This document shows positions 8,615 to 57,071 of a stretch of DNA of 64,000 nucleotides, piece after piece. The DNA comes from Phorcus lineatus (lineage: Eukaryota; Mollusca; Gastropoda; Trochida; Trochidae): positions 1,810,501-1,874,500 of the forward strand of contig OV121087.1 in the NCBI GenBank assembly GCA_921293015.1, read 5' to 3'. The notes beneath the pieces were generated by a model. The model ran no database searches and had not been told where the DNA came from. It worked only from the letters and a program-made list of their open reading frames with translations. Made by a program: the position numbers and the translations under genes. How positions within the stretch are numbered: the stretch's first letter is position 1; each line of letters starts with the position of its first letter.

Positions 8615-11600
8615 ATGTCGGACGAGAATATAAGGAAATGTCTTCATGCTCTGAGATCAGCTCAGTCTGATAATGAGCGTTTTGCCGCTTTAATGATGGT
8701 GAGCATACGATAGGAATCTTAGACTTAGTCTAATTTACACTTATAGTCTTACACTGTAATGCTTATTTCGGAATAGCAGTCTCAAAAGTTAATCAACATT
8801 GACCAAGAGTTACAAAAGATAGTCCAAACAAAGAACTGTTCATGATGTTGCTATAGTTTTGGTGAAAGTATAAATTTAAAAGGACCAAAGATCCATATTT
8901 ACAACAGCTTTATTGTTATAGGCCAAGTTTGTTGCATCTTTGTATCCAAAAAAATGTCTAGAAGTAGAATGAGTAGATAACAATTGTTAAATTTGATATA
9001 ATTTATTTAGGCATGATGACTTTTTAAAAATTGAATTGGCAACATAAACGTATTATAAGTTTCTATTTTAAAATAGTTTTAATATGATCTGGAATCATAG
9101 CATGAACATTTTTTGTCAAAACATTGAAACAATGACAAGAGCTGTAGATATGATGTAACAGGTAACGAAAGTGGTAAAAGCAGAAGACTGTGATGAAGAA
9201 ACAAGGAGAGAGCTGATGGATGCTATGGGCTTCCGATTCCTGACCAGGCTCATGAAAACCAGTATGTGATCAATATAATTAATAATAATAATAAGGGTAT
9301 TTTTATAGCGCACATATCCACACCGAATGCATGCTCAATTACCCTGGCATAACCCAAGCTGCCAATTAAGGGCTTAAAGAGCCACTCTGTGAGTTGTTGG
9401 AGTCAACTTAATCAATGGTGTCATTTGATTGCAAAGTATCGACTGTTACCAAAAAGACACATTTTAAAGCTTATTGTTTTTTTACAGTGACAATATGAAG
9501 GTAGAACGTTGCAATTATGACGGAAAACCGGACAGTAGCGCGTGTCAATTAGTCAAACGTTATTTTAGAGACTTATCTAAAACAGTCAAGAGGGCAGTTA
9601 GGAGTTGATAGTGTTTGTTAGGTTATACAACTAGTATCCATGTATATTGGACGTGATATCTACACCTCTGTGAATTTATAAGGCTGTTTTTAGATTTTCA
9701 TCGAAAACCAGTATTTGTCATATTTATACATGTCTTTTGGACATGAAAAGTTAAGATCTTTAGATTTTATGTTACCACATTTAGGTTTGTATCAAAGGTA
9801 AATAATATGCTATAAAAATCACAGAGTGGCTGTTTAAATGTCACCTCCAACACAATCTACACCTGGTACCAAATTAGTACTGCTGGGTGAACAGAAGCAC
9901 ATTTTGCCTAAAAAGGCCCTTGCCTTAGGAGACACCACAAGTTTCTCAACTCGTGTCGCAGTGTGGGGCAGGGAATAACCCTTGAACTCTCAATTAATAC
10001 AGCAATGATCAATAGTGTAAATGACGTCACTAGCCATGGACCTAGTCAAGCATTTTCAATTTATTACCATATTAAGTAAGTTTAATTTAGGTTTATTTTT
10101 GCTGAAGAAGAAAGAATTAAAATCTACATGCTAGAAAAGACACAGAGTAGCCTCAACCATCATACATGTATTTTGCAATAAAATGCAGTTTTGCCTGAAC
10201 TGTTATTAACATCAAACCAATCGGCCTTGTGGTTTAGCTATAATAGTTCAAAACTGTACTTCATTGAAAAAGAAATTATGGTTGTGGCTACTCTATTTCT
10301 CAAGTAAGAAATGTTGGTAAGAAGCACATTTCATAGATATGTGTAAACTAAGCTTTATCACCATATTCAAATAACTCTGCTTTGATTTCTATATCATATT
10401 GAGTTGTGTATGTCTTGACAGTGAATGTCCCTGAGGGCTGTCCACCAAGTATATACAAGTCCATTGCTCTCAGTATTCTATCCAGCTTCACACAAGATCC
10501 CTCCGTGGTGAGTGACTCTTCTGACCTTTTCCAATTGTATCACAATATGTATTATATCAAGATTTCTGGTCCCATATCCACAGAACGATGGAACGTACAT
10601 ATGTTATTAAAGGCATATATTCTCTCTAAAACCCAACAAGCGCCAGTCTCCATCACTGGCTGTTTTAAGCTTAGCTGCATTTCTAAAACTTCTCTTACTT
10701 ATTGATACTTGCATTACAGTTTTATATACATGTTCCAGACATAAGAGTGTTTTTCTTTTTAGCTTGACACTATTTGTAATATTCAATTCTGAATTAAACC
10801 TGGACATTTGTTTTCATTTCGAAATGTGAAATTCTTTGCAGGTTTCAAATCCAGAGCTAAAGAAGCAGGTTACAGTGCTCAACGAAGTTGTCCTAGGAAA
10901 CTTCAGGTAAGTGTTCAGGATGTTTGTGAGGTGTGAGGTTAGGTGAATTGGTGTTTAACGCCGCTTTCAAGATTATTTCACTTATTTCGCGGCTGCTAGT
11001 ATTATTGCAGGGAGAAAGCCCGCAACACCATTGTGGCTATGCATTGCGGTGAAACCTGCGAGCATCGGCTGGAACTAGCGAACCATGGGTGGTACTGCGC
11101 TGAAATTCAGTGTAGCATTGCACCCAAACCTGAGTGCGTGTAGGACAATTCTCTACTGCAGACAAAGTTGCCGAGCCCCTTGCGGGATTCGAACCACGAA
11201 CCTCTTGATTCGAAGCCGAACGTGCTAACCACTGCGCTATTCCGCCCTTGTTTGTGAGAGGAGGGAGGAGAGAACTCCTGAGCCTCTGTTTGTTATGTAG
11301 TGCTGTCAGAACCCTCACTTCAGCACATTTTCTCTTTTGTACAGAACCAAGAATGCAACAAACAAAAATCACAACAAACACAATTTTATTTTTTAAAAAT
11401 GACACTTTGACACAAGTGTACCAAACGAAAAGCAAAATTCAGCTGTTCAAGTACTGTGTTGAGATGTTAGGAAGAAGTATTGATTTTAACCTCAGAAACA
11501 CATGACCTGTTCCTCTATCTTAGGACAAGTTTTAGTTAAGCAACGCTAATCATATCATTAAAAAACCTTTTGATCAAATTGCAGTGATGATGAAGATGAG

Positions 11601-25400: not shown

Positions 25401-28400
25401 CAACTTATCGTGTTGAAATATTTAATATCGAAAGACATTTGGTTAAGATACTCTATCGACACAATGAAAGATCAACCATAAAACTTCTCATATCCCTAAC
25501 TTATATTGTCCAGGTAGGGATATTAGTCCACCGGCCCAGAGGGGTCCCCATGCACCCCCCCCCCCCCCCCCATGGCAGAATGAAACTAACTTTTTTTGAA
25601 GCCTTGACATGTCTATTATGCAAATTTGACTGGTAACAGTGTATAAACTGGGACGAAATGTGTCATTTTTACATATTTCCATGGGTACCCCCCTCAGCCA
25701 CTTATTCTCTGAAGCGTCACACCAAAAGGTGGATGTCCCCATATCTTTGGTTCTAATTATCATAGAACCATAATCTTGGTATCTAAATGTATGTTTATAA
25801 GGTCACTGAATCCATTGACAGACATTTCAGATAGCTACCATAGGTCATTTGTACGAAATTTTAGGTTTCCATTACAAAAACTCGTCATTCATGACTTCGA
25901 CCGGTAACAATTCTATTTTCTCTTCTCTACAGTTAATGTATATGATTTTATTTTACATTATTTGCACTGAGAATAGAATCTTGAGTACTTGTAACCCTTT
26001 TGTGTACTTATGTGTACTTATAACACACAAATTAAGTGTCCAAAAGCAAACCAAGAGACCTACCGCTAATCTACTATCATTGAAATACACCAACTCAGCC
26101 TTGGTAAAAATCTATTTTCTCTTCTCTAAAGTTAATGTATATTATTTTATTTAACATTATTTGCACTTAGAGTAGAATTATGGATACTTGCAACTTTTTT
26201 TTGTATTTGTGTACTTATATCAATCAAGGTTAAGTGTCCAAAAGCAAACTATGGGACCTACCATTAATCCACTATCATTGAAATACACCAAATCAGCCTT
26301 GGAAAAAACTAACAATTTTGTATTTTGAATGTGTTGTTTTACTTCTAAATCATTGGGGATTTAAAGGGATAGATTTAAAGGGCACAAAGAAGAAAGATAA
26401 CACATAGGTACTAATTCTGCCATTACACACATCACAGACATGTACTATAGGAGTACATTCTTGCAAATTATTCATTTTCAATCTCCATATGACTGTTTGA
26501 TTCAGTTGCTTTTTGGACATCAACAACTTATCAAAATTCTAGTTTTAAGAGAGAGCATCATCATCAATAACATCACCATACACCACACACCTTAACAACG
26601 TTCATCATCATCCTCAAAGCTGTCACGTTGCAAGGCCTTGATGTCGACCAACTCTCTACGAAGAGCGCACTGGCTCTAGCTTCCAATCCACAAGAGTCGA
26701 ACTATGACTCTCATTAGCAAAAAGAACAACAGACATTGGAACAGAGATGTATTCCATAGAGCCTCCTGCTAATTGAAATGCATTGTATGATACTCTAGGC
26801 TTTTGATGGTATCATGATAGTGTCCATGTTACATTGTTTGACTCATCTTCACAGTAATAGTCATTCAGTTGCAGACAGCAAACTTTATCAACAATTTTTA
26901 TGTCAGGTCCACCATAGAGAACAAAAATGAAATCCATAAGGGCTTTTATAAGTGATTTGTACAATAAGGAAGACAAAATTTTCTGCTTAACAACTTTATT
27001 TTAAAATTCACGTTCCTGAGTACATGATTACTCCATCAGGTTGGTTGTAGGATATATGAATTGTGGTACATATAACCACAACAAGTAAACATTAAACAAT
27101 AGTGAGGAAACCTAATTATCAAGATTAATCATATGAGAATGTAATACAATATGGATTTCCAGTAAATGCACATATGAAGGCACCTTGCTCACCAAACAAA
27201 TCTGATGGCACAACCTAAGAGCCACTTGATCTGACAAGAAAAACTTTGAAAATAGCAAGTAAAAAACACCTTGCAATGAGCCTAATCCGATGAGTCCAGC
27301 GTCAAGTGGGATAAGAATGTCTGAGAAACAACTTCCATCCATTTACTTGCTACGCATCCTTATATATGCTCATTCCACTCGGAATGTTCTTATGACTATG
27401 ATATGGTTTTTGTATCTATCATTGTTATGCCATGTGATAGGACATGCCTTCATTGAAACTTCCAGATCAAATGTGGTCATACTGAAGGTTGAAACCTACA
27501 TTACTATAAAGCACCTTCTGTGTTGATTTGCTGAAGAAAGCACAACTTAACCACATGGATACATCTTATATGTGTGATACTAACTTTAAGCCTTTTGCGG
27601 ATTGTCATGTAACCACTGCAGTTCTGTTGTCTAGAGATGCAGACATATTTTGTTTGATATATCTATTGATAAAATTACAGCATTAAGTTGCTCATTCCTA
27701 CGGTGACTTCAAAGTTTTCATTGTCAGATCAAGTGACTATAAGGTTGTGCCATCAGATTTGTTTGGTGAGCTAGGTGCCTTCATATGTGCACATAAAAAA
27801 TGTTGATAAAGTTTGCTGTCTGCAACTGAATGACTATTGCTGTGAAGATGAGTCAAACAATGTAACATGGACACTATCATGATACCATCAAAAGCCTAGA
27901 GTATCATACAATGCATTTCAATTAGCAGGAGGCTCTATGGAATACATCTCTGTTCCAATGTCTGTTGTTCTTTTTGCTAATGAGAGTCATAGTTCGACTC
28001 TTGTGGATTGGAAGCTAGAGCCAGTGCGCTCTTCGTAGAGAGTTGGTCGACATCAAGGCCTTGCAACGTGACAGCTTTGAGGATGATGATGAACGTTGTT
28101 AAGGTGTGTGGTGTATGGTGATGTTATTGATGATGATGCTCTCTCTTAAAACTAGAATTTTGATAAGTTGTTGATGTCCAAAAAGCAACTGAATCAAACA
28201 GTCATATGGAGATTGAAAATGAATAATTTGCAAGAATGTACTCCTATAGTACATGTCTGTGATGTGTGTAATGGCAGAATTAGTACCTATGTGTTATCTT
28301 TCTTCTTTGTGCCCTTTAAATCTATCCCTTTAAATCCCCAATGATTTAGAAGTAAAACAACACATTCAAAATACAAAATTGTTAGTTTTTTCCAAGGCTG

Positions 28401-31400
28401 ATTTGGTGTATTTCAATGATAGTGGATTAATGGTAGGTCCCATAGTTTGCTTTTGGACACTTAACCTTGATTGATATAAGTACACAAATACACAAAAGAG
28501 TTGCAAGTATCCATAATTCTACTTTAAGTGCAAATAATGTTAAATAAAATAATATACATTAACTTTAGAGAAGAGAAAATAGATTTTTACCAAGGCTGAG
28601 TTGGTGTATTTCAATGATAGTAGATTAGCGGTAGGTCCCTTGGTTTGCTTTTGGACACTTAATGTATGTGTTATAAGTACACATAAGTACACAAAAGGGT
28701 TACAAGTACTCAAGAATCTATTCTCAGTGCAAATAATGTAAAATAAAGTGATATACATTCACTGTAGAGAAGAGAAAATAGTTTTTTCCAAAGTTGAGTT
28801 GGTGTTTTTCAAGGATAGTAGATTAGCGGTAGGTCTCTTGGTTTGCTTTTGGACACTTAATTTATGTGTTATAAGTACACATAAGTACAGAAAATGGTTA
28901 CAAGTACTCAAGATTCCATTCTCAGTGCAAATAATGTAAAATAAATTCATATACAGTAACTGTAGAGAGGAAAAAATATATTTTTTCCAAGGCTGAGTTG
29001 CTGTATTTTAATGATAGTAGATTAACGGTAGGTCCCTTGGTTTGCTTTTGGACACTTATTTTGTGTGTTATAAGTACACATAAGTACACAAAATGGTTAC
29101 AAGTACTCAAGATTCTATTCTCAGTGCAAATAATGTAAAATAAAATCATATACATTAACTGTAGAGAAGAGAAAATAGAATTGTTACCGGTCGAAGTCAT
29201 GAATGACGAGTTTTTGTAATGGAAACCTAAAATTCGTACAAATGACCTATGGTAGCTATCTGAAATGTCTGTCAATGGATTCAGTGACCTTATAAACATA
29301 CATTTAGATACCAAGATTATGGTTCTATGATAATTAGAACCAAAGATATGGGGACATCCACCTTTTGGTGTGACGCTTCAGAGAATAAGTGGCTGAGGGG
29401 GGTACCAATAGAAATATGTAAAAATGACACATTTCGTCCCAGTTTATACACTGTTACCAGTCAAATTTGCATAATAGACATGTCAAGGCTTCAAAGAAAG
29501 TTAGTTTCATTCTGCCATGGGGGGGGGGGGGGAGGGGGGGGGGTGCATGGGGACCCCTCTGGGCCGGTGGACTATATGGGGGTAATGACTGAAATCAGGT
29601 TTTTACCCTGCATATACCATGATGGTAACATATGAAGCCAACTCACTTTGACTGGCCAGGCTGGCAGTGGTTCCAGGAAGTTAGCTGGGTATGGGTAGTT
29701 GACCATGGCGAGGTCAAACCAGGAGCCACTCATCCAAGCTTTGACCTGTGCTACATCAGCCGCAGTCTTAACAGGAGAGCAAAGTTGAAGTGTGCTTGTG
29801 AGAAATGCCCTCCCTGCAACTGAAAGGATTTCAAGTGGATGGTGAAAAAGTGGATATTAAACTGTGTACAAAGTATTCAGTAATTTTGTTTCTTATCTCA
29901 CTCCAAAGAACCTAGAAATCCTGCCTATTTCACTGAATATATTTGACACATGATGTGCTCGGATACCACAGACCAGGTGAATTCTGGCTTTCATTATAAT
30001 ATAATAGCAGGGCTTATATTTCCAGAGTAATCTTAGCACAATGAAGTTGTATGCCAATGTGGCTTCCAGGACAACCTGTGGCTGTATACCTGTAGCCCCG
30101 ATCTTGTCGACAGTTGCCCATGATCTGCGGATGTTGTCTACACACTGAGGGGAGGACTTGTGGAAGGAGTTGGTCGTCGTGTTCATCAGAGCTGAACATG
30201 GGGTCAGACCTGTGAAGTCCCAGATCGGAGCAGAACCAGCCAGTGATCTGTACACAACATAAATTTTAACAAACATGAGGTAAAGTTTCTTGAAGTATCA
30301 TCCATTTACAGGACTTCCAAGAATGAGTGAGTTGATTTGTGACGCCGCGTGGGCAATATTTCAGCTATTAGCAGTGTAAGGACTTACAAGATCACCTGAT
30401 TCTGATGCTATGTATGATAATAATAATAAGGATGTTTATATTGCGCTAATCCACGCCACTGAGGGATATGCTTTAAGCGCATCCTGCATTATTACCCTGG
30501 GGTAACCCAAGCTGCCGGTTACAGTGCTCAAAGTCACCTCCTATACAATCTACACCAGGTACCCAATTAGTACTGCTGGGTGAACAGAGGCACAATTTGA
30601 ATATAGTCTCTTGTCTTAGGAGACACCACAGGTTTTTCACTTGTGCCTCAGTGTAGGGCTCGGAATAACCCTTCAAACTCTCAGTTAATACAGCAATGAT
30701 CGGGTAACTCACACATCCAGCAAGTCACGCCAGGACCACATGCCACCACATGTGGTTTTAATGTATACTGGTATATAAAACACTCGTTGGAGATGGTAAA
30801 CATGGCATGAAACAATAACTAGGTAGGAGATGGTAAACATGGCATGAAACAATAACTAGGTAGGAGATGGTAAACATGGCATGAAACAATAACTAGGTAG
30901 GAGATGGTAAACATGGCATGAAACAATAACTAGGTAGGAGATGGTAAACATGGCATGAAACAATAACTAGGTAGGAGATGGTAAACATGGCATGAAACAA
31001 TAACTAGGTAGGAGATGGTAAACATGGCATGAAACAATAACTAGGTAGGAGATGGTAAACATGGCATGAAACAATAGCTAGGTAGGAGATGGTAAACATG
31101 GCATGAAACAATAGCTAGGTAGGAGATGGTAAACATGGCATGAAACAATAACTAGGTAGGAGATGGTAAACATGGCATGAAACAATAACTAGGTAGGAGA
31201 TGGTAAACATGGCATGAAACAATAACTAGGTAGGAGATGGTAAACATGGCATGAAACAATAACTAGGTAGGAGATGGTAAACATGGCATGAAACAATAAC
31301 TAGGTAGGAGATGGTAAACATGGCATGAAACAATAACTAGGTAGGAGATGGTAAACATGGCATGAAACAATAACTAGGTAGGAGATGGTAAACATGGCAT

Positions 31401-34400
31401 GAAACAATAACTAGGTAGGAGATGGTAAACATGGCATGAAACAATAACTAGGTAGGAGATGGTAAACATGGCATGAAACAATAACTAGGTAGGAGATGGT
31501 AAACATGGCATGAAACAATAACTAGGTAGGAGATGGTAAACATGGCATGAAACAATAACTAGGTAGGAGATGGTAAACATGGCATGAAACAATAACTAGG
31601 TAGGAGATGGTAAACATGGCATGAAACAATAACTAGGTAGGAGATGGTAAACATGGCATGAAACAATAACTAGGTAGGAGATGGTAAACATGGCATGAAA
31701 CAATAACTAGGTAGGAGATGGTAAACATGGCATGAAACAATAACTAGGTAGGAGATGGTAAACATGGCATGAAACAATAACTAGGTAGGAGATGGTAAAC
31801 ATGGCATGAAACAATAACTAGGTAGGAGATGGTAAACATGGCATGAAACAATAACTAGGTAGGAGATGGTAAACATGGCATGAAACAATAACTAGGTAGG
31901 AGATGGTAAACATGGCATGAAACAATAACTAGGTAGGAGATGGTAAACATGGCATGAAACAATAACTAGGTAGGAGATGGTAAACATGGCATGAAACAAT
32001 AACTAGGTAGGAGATGGTAAACATGGCATGAAACAATAACTAGGTAGGAGATGGTAAACATGGCATGAAACAATAACTAGGTAGGAGATGGTAAACATGG
32101 CATGAAACAATAACTAGGTAGGAGATGGTAAACATGGCATGAAACAATAACTAGGTAGGAGATGGTAAACATGGCATGAAACAATAACTAGGTAGGAGAT
32201 GGTAAACATGGCATGAAACAATAACTAGGTAGGAGATGGTAAACATGGCATGAAACAATAACTAGGTAGGAGATGGTAAACATGGCATGAAACAATAACT
32301 AGGTAGGAGATGGTAAACATGGCATGAAACAATAACTAGGTAGGAGATGGTAAACATGGCATGAAACAATAACTAGGTAGGAGATGGTAAACATGGCATG
32401 AAACAATAACTAGGTAGGAGATGGTAAACATGGCATGAAACAATAACTAGGTAGGAGATGGTAAACATGGCATGAAACAATAACTAGGTAGGAGATGGTA
32501 AACATGGCATGAAACAATAACTAGGTAGGAGATGGTAAACATGGCATGAAACAATAACTAGGTAGGAGATGGTAAACATGGCATGAAACAATAACTAGGT
32601 AGGAGATGGTAAACATGGCATGAAACAATAACTAGGTAGGAGATGGTAAACATGGCATGAAACAATAACTAGGTAGATTCATTTATCTTGTCTTAATAGT
32701 AAGAATCAAACAAATAATTCACATGAACTGGTAGCTCCTTTCAATGTATCCAAACACCATTTGAATATTCCAGTCTTATTTTTCCCTAAGTGCAAAAACA
32801 ATTATGATGGTTTGTGAAAAGAAGAAATGTTCTATTTTGTAGGCCAAATTTACCCGATCACAATATTTGGGTACTTGATCCTCATCCATGTTGACAACAT
32901 GCCGCCATATGAACCTCCAAAGGAAACAACATGGCTGTCGCTAGCCCCTGGTATGGTTGACTTGAGATGTTTTATCAGTACTGCAAAATCTGCCAATGCT
33001 TGCTCCGAAGTCAGAAAGTTCAATTTACTTGGATCCTTTGGAGAAAAAGATGCACCAGATGAATAAGAAATAACATATAAAAGTATTAAATCAAATTACC
33101 AATCAACTGACCTAGGAAGCCATAACTTGTGCTGGTCTCAATCTCTGGTTTATTTTACCCTTTTGTCACCTTTTCTGTGTCAGTTCTTCAGCATACTACA
33201 TTTGAAGATGATCATCCAGTAAGGAATCTCCTTGAGGTTAATGCCAATTGCTGAAGTCAGGGCGCTTCACTCAAACCATTTGGGGCTATGCAGCATGGCT
33301 TGAATGAGCCAGTCATTGGGATTGTCACAAGATATGCCTTGCGAGGGAAGTAAGTTGGCAATTTATATAAAGAAAGGTTGGCATTCAGGGATGCTTTGGA
33401 AGAAATAATATCATTAATTCATTTAACTTAAATATCTCATAAAATTACAAGTTACAAGCTGCAAAGAATTGTTATACATTAATCTTCCTCTGATGTTTCT
33501 CAACCTGAGTTTATTTCCAGAGAAACGGCAATTTTGTCATTATCTATCATTGAAATAAGTAAACTGGCAAAACTGCAACATCAAACTAAACTCTACCTTA
33601 TAAGATTGATCACCATAAGGAATAGATGAACCATAATATCTATGCTCTGCAAAAACCAGCAATGCTTTGAACTCCGGAGCAATGTCCCACATAAATCCCT
33701 GTAAATGAAGATGTCTTGTTAAAAATCATAACTTTATCAATCCTAATGATTTAAGAAATATACAGATAATTAAAGTTTCATGAGATATCCATATTTTTGA
33801 CAAACACAATATGATTTTACTTCTAATATGACAAGAATAAAATAATTAAAAAGACAACTTGTGAAAAGTACATATTTGTTGCATAAGAATTATTTAATTA
33901 ACTTCATATAACATAAAATTAATGAAATTTGTATCAAATTGTATTTCTCTATCATTTTACAAATTGATTTGATAGCAACTCTTACCGTGTTGTTGCAGAA
34001 CCAAGCAATATCGCCCTCATTTCCTGTGTAGAAGAATATTGGTCCTCCCTTACGATTCCAGAATTGGGAAGCTACCAAATATCTCTGTTTAAAAGTGTCT
34101 TGGTTATTGAATCCAAAATGGTCCACCTAAAAAACAAGATGAATAAGAATGTATACTATCTCTCATTACAAATTGTACCACTGGTCAGCAACATTTAAAA
34201 ATCAATTATATACTAGCACAGAAGATATAAAAGGGATTGGTTTATAGTATAAGTTTTTTTTAATTATCCACTAAGGTAGTTCCAAATGAACATTAGATAT
34301 CATATAAATTAATCAATCATCAATGACAATCGCTATGGTAGAATAATTGCCTAAGTTTGTTAGTAATGTAGTTTTGTGCAAACACTGCATGTGTGGATAA

Positions 34401-54902: not shown

Positions 54903-57071
54903 ATGACGAACACAAAGGGTTACAGGCGCGGTACGCGCTACATGTTCTCGAAGAAATTCAGAACACTTGGAGTTATTCCTTTGTCAACTTATATGAAAAT
55001 ATACAGACGAGGTGACATCGTTGATATCAAGGTATTGAACTCTTATGTATATCTATGTGAGGTCAAGATACTCAAGGTTTATTGTTGAAGTTTTTCAACA
55101 TCACATGTTTGATAGATGTACCACTGGCAGTTTTGGTCCCAGATGGTCCAAGTATAGGTGTCAATTTGGCTTGTTCTTTACTGTTTACACCATTTTAAAT
55201 TGTCTATCTTCTTAAATATTTATGGAACACCAAGCAAAAATGGTGGGCGGACTTCTTTAGGAACCCCTTCAGGAACAACACTTGAAAGGGTATTCATCAT
55301 AAACAGATTTTATGTAAAGTTCAATGTAATTTACAAGTCTTTCTTTGTATGGATGTAGGTATTTTGGTAGGTTATTGTGTTTCCTTCAAAGTTGAAAGAA
55401 TTCTATAATCTATTGTTGCACAATGTCTTCCACACTATGATAATGCAAGTCTAGTTTGATTGGTATAACTTGTTTGCAAACAGTATGAGAGTATTCTGTT
55501 TATTTTATTAATTTAATTATCCTTGTTATTTTTATAATTTCAGGGTGATGGTGCAGTCCAGAAGGGTATGCCGCACAAATTCTACCATGGTAAAACTGGG
55601 AGAATCTTCAATGTCACACCTCATGCTGTGGGAGTCATCGTAAACAAAACTGTTGGGTGTGTATCAGTATATGATTATTTGTTGAATTGGCTTAAAGAGC
55701 CACTCCATGATTTTCATAACATATTAAATACCTTTGATACGAACCTAAATGTCATATTCGGTGAACACGCCGCTAATGGCTGAAATATTGCTCAAGCGGT
55801 GTTAAACAATAACTCACTCACTCACCATATTCGGTGATATAAAATCAAAACATCTTAACTCCCCTGTTTGATCAAACTTTTCATGTCCAAAAGACATACA
55901 TGACAAATACTAATTTTCCATAAAAATTTAAAAACAGCCTTACAAATGCACAGAGGTTTAGATATCACGTCCAATATACATTGATACTAGTTATATCACC
56001 TAACAAACGCTATCAACTCCTAACTGCCCTCCTGGCTGTTTTAGATTAGACGTTTGACTATTTGACGCGCGCCACTTTCCTAATTTCGATCATAATTGCA
56101 ACGTTCTACCTTCACATTGTCACTGTTAAAAAATAATAAGCTTTAAAATGTGTTTTTTGGGTAACAGTCGACACTTCACAATCAAATGACACCATTGACC
56201 CTAAAAATTTGTTTTTTTTAAAAAAAACATCTTTTGATAAGTTAAGTCCTGTGTTATGACAGGTGTACAATCAATTTTTTATAGTCTGATGATTGAATGT
56301 TCACCTTTAAGAAGTTCATGATTGCATGAAAATGAGAATGTGTAAATCTTTATTCCTGCAGGGAGCGTATCATCCCCAAGAGGATCAACGTGCGAGTTGA
56401 GCACATCAAGCACTCCAACTGCAGACTGGACTTCTTGAAGCGTGTTGCCCAGAATGACAAGGCAAAGCGTGAGGCCAAGACAACTGGAGTTCGCATCAAC
56501 ACAAAGAGACAGGTTAGATAGCTTTTGAATATTTCATGACCATAATCTTTCTAAAGACGTCAAATTAAGGGAAAATTAACTTCAATTCTGTTTATGCTTA
56601 GTGAATTTGTTCTTTTTCCTCCTGAAACAAAAAACATTAGTTTCAACAATTGTATTCTGAATGTTCACTTGATAAATGTTTTGAAATGCTTGTATCTCTC
56701 CCAAATTAAAAGGAATTTTTGCTGAAATCTTTCTTTTACCCCCAGCACCAATTGATAACACCATTTTCTTTGAAAATAGAATGGTATAATGTTTTGACAA
56801 GTATTTCTTTACCAGTAACAGGTTATAAATATTTAAGAGTTTGCTTCTGAAAACTTCACTTATGGAAATGAATCTGTTTTTCTTAGTAGTCTTGGTTGGA
56901 CAGCAGTTTTTATGAATTCTGAGAAACAACAATCCTTAATGTTAAGCGTATGAAGTATAACATCTTTTATTTCTTTTGCAGCCCAAGCAGCCAAGGACAT
57001 CTCACTTTGTGAGGACACGCTACAACAAACCCCAGCTTGTCGAACCAATCCCATACGAGATTGTGGCTTAA
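54903..57071 (+). CDS. RPL21: 60S ribosomal protein L21 (eL21)
   Basis: Four coding exons: 54903-55031, 55544-55656, 56362-56512, 56982-57071; 483 nt, 160 aa, exactly the human length. A component of the large ribosomal subunit (eL21). The start [16 protein letters not shown] is family-typical, followed by [55 protein letters not shown], and the end [10 protein letters not shown] 5' UTR intron is inferred. AATAAA at 57085-57090 lies 14 bases after the stop, so the 3' UTR is very short, as usual for ribosomal protein genes. Intron 3 contains a piggyBac-like MITE. Confidence 0.97.
55692..56200 (-). mobile_element. piggyBac-like MITE, copy 2, carrying a nested insertion
   Basis: Starts TTAAAGAGCCACTCCATGA and matches the reverse complement of 9374-9837 over most of its length (AAAACAGCC, ATATCACGTCCAATATACAT, TTGCAACGTTCTACCTTCAC, TCAAATGACACCATTGA). 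The far end has decayed and its TTAA cannot be placed exactly. It contains a younger insertion at 55764-55826. Confidence 0.6.
55764..55826 (-). mobile_element. GTGAGTGAGTT-type repeat inserted in the MITE, with target duplication
   Basis: Minus-strand GTGAGTGAGTGAGTTATTGT through GCAATATTTCAGCCATTAGC. CATATTCGGTG occurs on both sides (about 55752-55762 and 55827-55837), an 11-bp duplication, which shows insertion as a discrete unit by target-primed retroposition or similar. Confidence 0.65.

Follow-up and report, generated by a model that had tools for sequence, protein, structure and literature searches.

The stretch examined here, termed the window, is the 64,000 nucleotides of Phorcus lineatus DNA at positions 1,810,501 to 1,874,500 of contig OV121087.1 (assembly GCA_921293015.1). 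Self-comparison of the window revealed a 4,047-bp near-palindrome at 25526–29572, which belongs to a young, TA-flanked family of non-autonomous inverted-repeat transposons with a foldback-like build. The element is best explained as one member of a non-autonomous DNA transposon family that moves by cut-and-paste and inserts at TA, using a transposase supplied in trans, most likely by a Tc1/mariner-like helper, and probably with copying between its two arms. A probability of about 0.75 is given to this reading. The parts of the element are as follows.

25524..25525, no strand: TA at the left edge (from the sequence; TA is present on both sides in 23/23 two-ended copies)
25526..25554, + strand: left terminus, 29 bases, the first 24 of which form the family search pattern together with TA
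25555..25571, + strand: poly-C tract of the left terminus, differing in length among copies (copy comparison)
25526..27250, + strand: left arm (terminal inverted repeat), 1,725 bp (self-comparison)
25903..26308, + strand: two tandem 198–199-bp units in the left arm (self-comparison)
26904..27166, + strand: left-arm stretch of 263 bp without a right-arm partner in the window copy (self-comparison)
27251..27707, no strand: centre, 457 bp, no coding capacity seen (frame reading, Pfam)
27708..29572, - strand: right arm (terminal inverted repeat), 1,865 bp (self-comparison)
28383..29178, - strand: four tandem 198–199-bp units in the right arm (self-comparison)
29519..29543, - strand: poly-G (poly-C on the arm strand) with a single internal A (sequence)
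29544..29572, - strand: right terminus, identical to the 29 bases of the left terminus in inverted orientation (sequence)
29573..29574, no strand: TA at the right edge (sequence, copy flank table)

The ends of the element read GTCCACCGG...CCGGTGGAC with TA outside each, and each 29-base terminus runs into poly-C on the arm strand. The inner arm pair of 991 bp was 98.8% complementary, the outer pair of 0.79 kb 92.8% with gaps included, and the innermost pair of 84 bp 92.9%. A preliminary description of the window had reported a foldback-like build with near-identical inverted arms of about 1.5–1.9 kb, a unit of about 197 bp present twice on the left and four times on the right, flanking TA, and a centre of about 450 bp lacking a transposase. 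Self-alignment recovered both the inverted arms and the tandem units, so that these observations hold with the measured lengths given above and with the same unit counts. No transposase-sized frame was present in the element; the longest stop-to-stop frame overlapping it had 151 codons and no Pfam match. Long arms carrying tandem repeats make up most of the element, which is the foldback-like architecture, a structural class rather than a clade. Extra binding sites have been reported for Galileo, and the 198-bp unit was scanned for such sites with the terminal 28-mer. The match was no better than for shuffled sequences (282/300 as high), and terminus-like sites within the unit were rejected.

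The structure is repeated throughout the 958-Mb assembly. The first 275 bases used as a query gave at least 40 full-length matches of 96–100% identity (40 of 596 candidates scored), and the 26-base terminus, TA included, gave 257 matches (132 + 125) at no more than one mismatch, whereas the backward control matched nowhere (0 + 0). The 100 termini listed out of these 257 gave 33 inward pairs of 740–4,830 bp, and no others lay within 30 kb. Thirty loci were read, consisting of 20 regions, nine short pairs picked from the pattern list and the window copy. Both termini were kept in 23 of these; in L012, L015, L017, L018, L019, L020 and L026 one end was lost, degraded or outside the stretch read. 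The two-ended copies ranged from 740 to 4,904 bp, arms in the family reached 2.1–2.3 kb, and the flanking DNA differed from copy to copy. Many dispersed copies with common inverted termini are characteristic of a terminal-inverted-repeat transposon. For the centre of the window element 40 of 150 candidates were scored, and the 39 besides the window itself were 96–99% identical to it.

All 23 two-ended copies had TA on both sides, and no longer flank was shared in any of them. Nine of these copies came from the TA-containing pattern and are not independent support for TA, since the search pattern already contained it. The 14 two-ended copies obtained by the TA-free search, the window copy included, were all TA/TA, and the seven one-ended loci from that search had TA at the retained end. 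Alternate positions around the TA were A or T at 18, 18, 19 and 18 of 21 sites (WNW-TA-WNW; two palindromic-flank sites excluded), a count made with no shuffled control in a region of about 65% A+T. This pattern resembles the target bias of Tc1/mariner elements.

The arms were compared over positions 61–372 in 22 of the 23 copies (L041 was too short), giving 44 arm stretches. A homology filter kept 39 of these and removed L009_R, L010_R, L021_R, L044_R and L047_R, leaving 17 copies with both arms. In these 17 copies the arms were 99.45% alike within a copy against 98.15% between copies, and 0/10,000 permutations of the arm pairing reached the observed value, although this is no strict probability because the copies have common ancestry. 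The number of tandem units, described at first as differing between the two arms, was found to differ among copies as well, with 1–6 on the left, 0–4 on the right and 4+4 in 5/23. Twelve shortened copies, nine of which had been selected for shortness, had smaller arm stubs of approximately 27, 46, 52, 59, 88, 232, 394, 575, 896, 987, 1,061 and 1,190 bp. In five of the twelve the stub ended within 90 bp of the terminus, close to the poly-C run, suggesting that repair synthesis often halts near this run.

These properties would be explained if a helper supplied in trans recognised the common terminus GTCC[A/G]CCGGCCCAGAGGGGTCCCC and inserted the element at TA. The TA and the WNW-TA-WNW bias point to a helper of Tc1/mariner-like type. 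The number of 198-bp units would then shift through unequal exchange or slippage, the arms of one copy would be kept alike, probably via inter-arm copying during gap repair or palindrome replication, and shortened or one-armed copies would arise from incomplete repair. Several observations weigh against this explanation. Only 18/34 arms had their mate as nearest neighbour, ties included. A search for the flanks of 15 copies among the loci read gave no clean empty site. A dispersed repeat with copies at 9410–9838 and 55692–56198 of the window and at L009 carries a foldback insertion at L017, and the junction alignments of this and of L011, which is also embedded in a repeat, were too loose to distinguish a TA duplication from a TA owned by the element. 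The strong conservation of the centre is compatible with a young family, yet a function that has escaped recognition might also lie behind it. No transposase-like frame, and hence none with the DDE/D catalytic domain of Tc1/mariner, was seen by eye in a six-frame reading of the copies read, a reading that did not extend to a family-wise genome search for transposases. The autonomous partner that the preliminary description had proposed to look for was not found, the only candidate having been rejected as set out below.

The same kind of element could instead be moved by a helper that is not Tc1/mariner-like, either of PHIS type (ISL2EU, with an AT duplication) or from an undescribed superfamily using TA. 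This is unlikely, though it deserves serious attention. No helper was found, and the family terminus starts with GTCC, compared with the CA that is common at Tc1/mariner ends. ISL2EU makes a 2-bp duplication at the target A|AT|T according to the accessible text of PMC4482050, but in the 23 two-ended copies TA lies outside GTCC, which is a different arrangement. The same source gives the target signatures of PIF/Harbinger, ISL2EU, Pangu and Nuwa (PHIS) as TWA, AT, ANT, CWG and TNA; these were absent from the flank table, and the 3-bp signatures of Harbinger, Pangu and Nuwa were not shared by the flanks.

Eight of the longest frames, taken from five copies with the window copy among them, gave no Pfam match above the cut-off, including a 199-codon frame in the centre of L022 which we take to resemble the end of a LINE protein. 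Variants of the terminus occurred at 38 places compared with 88 for the backward control, giving no excess. Three of these variants (C1:21.63 Mb, C15:31.49 Mb, which is L026, and C25:37.31 Mb) were seen by eye to pair with a known terminus at a distance of 1.4–4.1 kb, and have the look of degraded ends. At 15 places the terminus had no C at two tested positions of the usual poly-C run, and these included one inward pair, C29:1115678-1125457, 9,780 bp apart. This copy of 9,776 bp has matching arms of 0.85–0.87 kb, and a reverse transcriptase of LINE type lies in its interior (RVT_1, E 5.5e-22).

It is very improbable that this 9.8-kb copy is the autonomous partner and that its spliced gene encodes the helper. 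The copy does have family termini and TA flanks, five exon-like stretches with splice signals were recognised in it by eye, and its last exon gave 18 matches at 17 places, itself included, so that relatives exist at 16 other places (the C16, C17 and C17 matches were equal in score). The exons lacked a Pfam domain, however, the spliced gene had no Pfam or PHROGs match, and its best PDB match had an E value of 0.094. The non-coding DNA beside the last exon was 96% conserved at C25. When the border between arm and interior was used as a query, the C25 match and 17 other matches started at query position 361–372, which is the border, and lacked the arm (40 of 958 candidates scored). The candidate was rejected on this basis, as the interior of 7.5 kb starts exactly where its armless relatives start. 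The interior begins CACTACAAAAATGACTTGG (interior start of the C29 copy, CACTACAAAAATG), which we take to be the signature of a CACTA element. As the relatives begin at this border with the arm absent, the copy is best read as a foldback copy bearing a nested, incomplete CACTA-like element, located as follows.

L055:1270 to L056:3500 (C29:1116547-1124100): putative CACTA-like element lying within a foldback copy (left border from the border query)

Membership of the Foldback, Galileo or Mutator foldback groups, the kinship suggested by the preliminary description, is scarcely credible despite the common architecture, in which long arms contain tandem repeats (of about 220 bp in Tetris) and coding copies are few or absent. 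In the accessible parts of their descriptions Galileo has 7-bp, Tetris 8–10-bp and Tm1 mostly 9-bp duplications, against TA only in 23/23 copies here. Neither the 7–8-bp duplication of Galileo and P elements nor the 8–10 bp of the Mutator-type foldbacks Tetris and Tm1 was observed, the longest shared flank being TA, and this difference places the family outside Galileo, Tetris and Tm1. The structure recurs elsewhere with other flanks, in 257 termini and 23 complete copies with individual arm differences. A local inverted duplication, for which a single copy would have spoken, can therefore be dismissed, and so can an assembly artefact, even though near-perfect palindromes are prone to misassembly.

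Two of the 23 two-ended copies have flanks that form a palindrome with the insertion precisely at its centre, L010 with 104/104 and L044 with 106/107 symmetric flank bases; at L044 the symmetry carries on as far as the stretch was read, interrupted by gaps and mismatches. For comparison, 15,976 TA sites were taken from the window and 20 loci with two-ended copies masked and one-ended copies unmasked, and only 12 had perfectly symmetric arms of at least 12 bp, the longest being 22. A tentative proposal is that this TA-inserting foldback family is drawn to perfect flank palindromes or makes them. The transposase might prefer a TA that an extruded hairpin presents at its tip; alternatively, the folded arms might prime copying of the neighbouring DNA to give an inverted flank. 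Fold-back intermediates yielding inverted duplications have been described for human chromosomes (PMC3907307, accessible text).

The L044 copy is at the turning point of a tandem array with a repeat of approximately 190 bp (array loci L050, L044 and L051, C5:1037601-1044600). The array covers about 1.7 kb to the left of this point and, in the opposite direction, at least 2.4 kb to its right. Relatives of this array at C1:35.42 Mb, C7:25.39 Mb, C17:44.58 Mb and C19:9.55 Mb occur in opposite orientations 5–9 kb apart, and for this reason the array may be the arm repeat of a second foldback-like family. This favours a pre-existing palindrome as the target for L044; no uninterrupted L044 palindrome was present among the matches listed of the flank search (40 of 125 candidates scored). 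The L010 palindrome (L010:897-1000) is built as an inverted duplicate of the initial portion of a very common repeat, whose start lies near GGGGCACAGGGTATG (1,435 first-look candidates), and it ends at a poly-C run. Three further copies of the repeat that were read (L052-L054) had no such palindrome, which together with the stop at poly-C favours fold-back copying of the flank for L010.

The window element can be placed inside an intron of a - strand PRCP-like gene, in agreement with the intron location first proposed. This placement rests on a match to the right of the element and on further - strand frames near 22.5–22.6, 32.9 and 33.6 kb carrying motifs that we take to be those of the PRCP enzyme.

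~29647..29826, - strand: PRCP-like (S28 peptidase) exon stretch outside the element; 60 aa of the frame match human lysosomal Pro-X carboxypeptidase 3n2z with E 1.1e-16

The PRCP region also contains a 37-bp minisatellite at 30789–32676 with 51 copies and 99% match. Elsewhere in the genome, two same-orientation arms of equal score at C39:11740061-11740919 and 11747522-11748380, 7.46 kb apart, look as if a foldback copy had been duplicated in tandem. At C1:74371615-74382110 same-orientation foldback termini 4.03 kb apart alternate with a CACTA-like end at 4.04-kb spacing, which looks like a tandem duplication with pieces of foldback and CACTA-like elements. Among the loci read, L018:1-1791 contains a 597-codon open frame that is nearly all short tandem repeat and open in more than one frame, L020 presumably contains a TRIM/NHL-type frame and L015 presumably a SINE-like repeat.

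The foldback design is already known, but the TA-flanked version matches no family recognised in the open-access literature searched. The suggestion that the family is non-autonomous agrees with the many copies and the lack of visible coding capacity, and the suggestion that it is undescribed stands within that literature. The family adds large-arm, TA-flanked foldbacks to an architecture described mostly with 7–10-bp duplications, and supports the view that foldback arms arose in several transposon lineages. Its many young copies provide material on how long palindromes stay alike and shorten, and the insertions at palindrome centres make target choice against fold-back copying directly testable.

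Among foldback elements of marine invertebrates, the TU elements of sea urchins have long arms, together with 8-bp duplications and short repeat units. Galileo, a member of the P superfamily from Drosophila with a 7-bp target duplication, shares long, internally repetitive arms and variable length and structure, and its first-found copies consisted of two arms only (PMC3573991, accessible text); it differs by its P-type transposase, a protein with a THAP domain, no enzyme having been found for the window family. Tetris of D. virilis and Tm1 of root-knot nematodes were assigned to Mutator by their authors, and in the available parts of their descriptions both share the arm-internal repeats and Tetris is likewise without a coding copy found. 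The LTIR-like (DD40-41D) Tc1/mariner elements of aphids have the TA duplication and arms of about 460 bp, but are coding elements, and tandem units in the arms are unmentioned in the accessible text of PMC5490172. The nearest analogue, as judged from the accessible text of PMC3169594, appears to be Mcmar, a Tc1/mariner-like element whose arms contain direct repeats and palindromes and have expanded toward a foldback-like build; its arms are 355 bp, compared with up to 2.1–2.3 kb, and no coding copy found, in the family described here.

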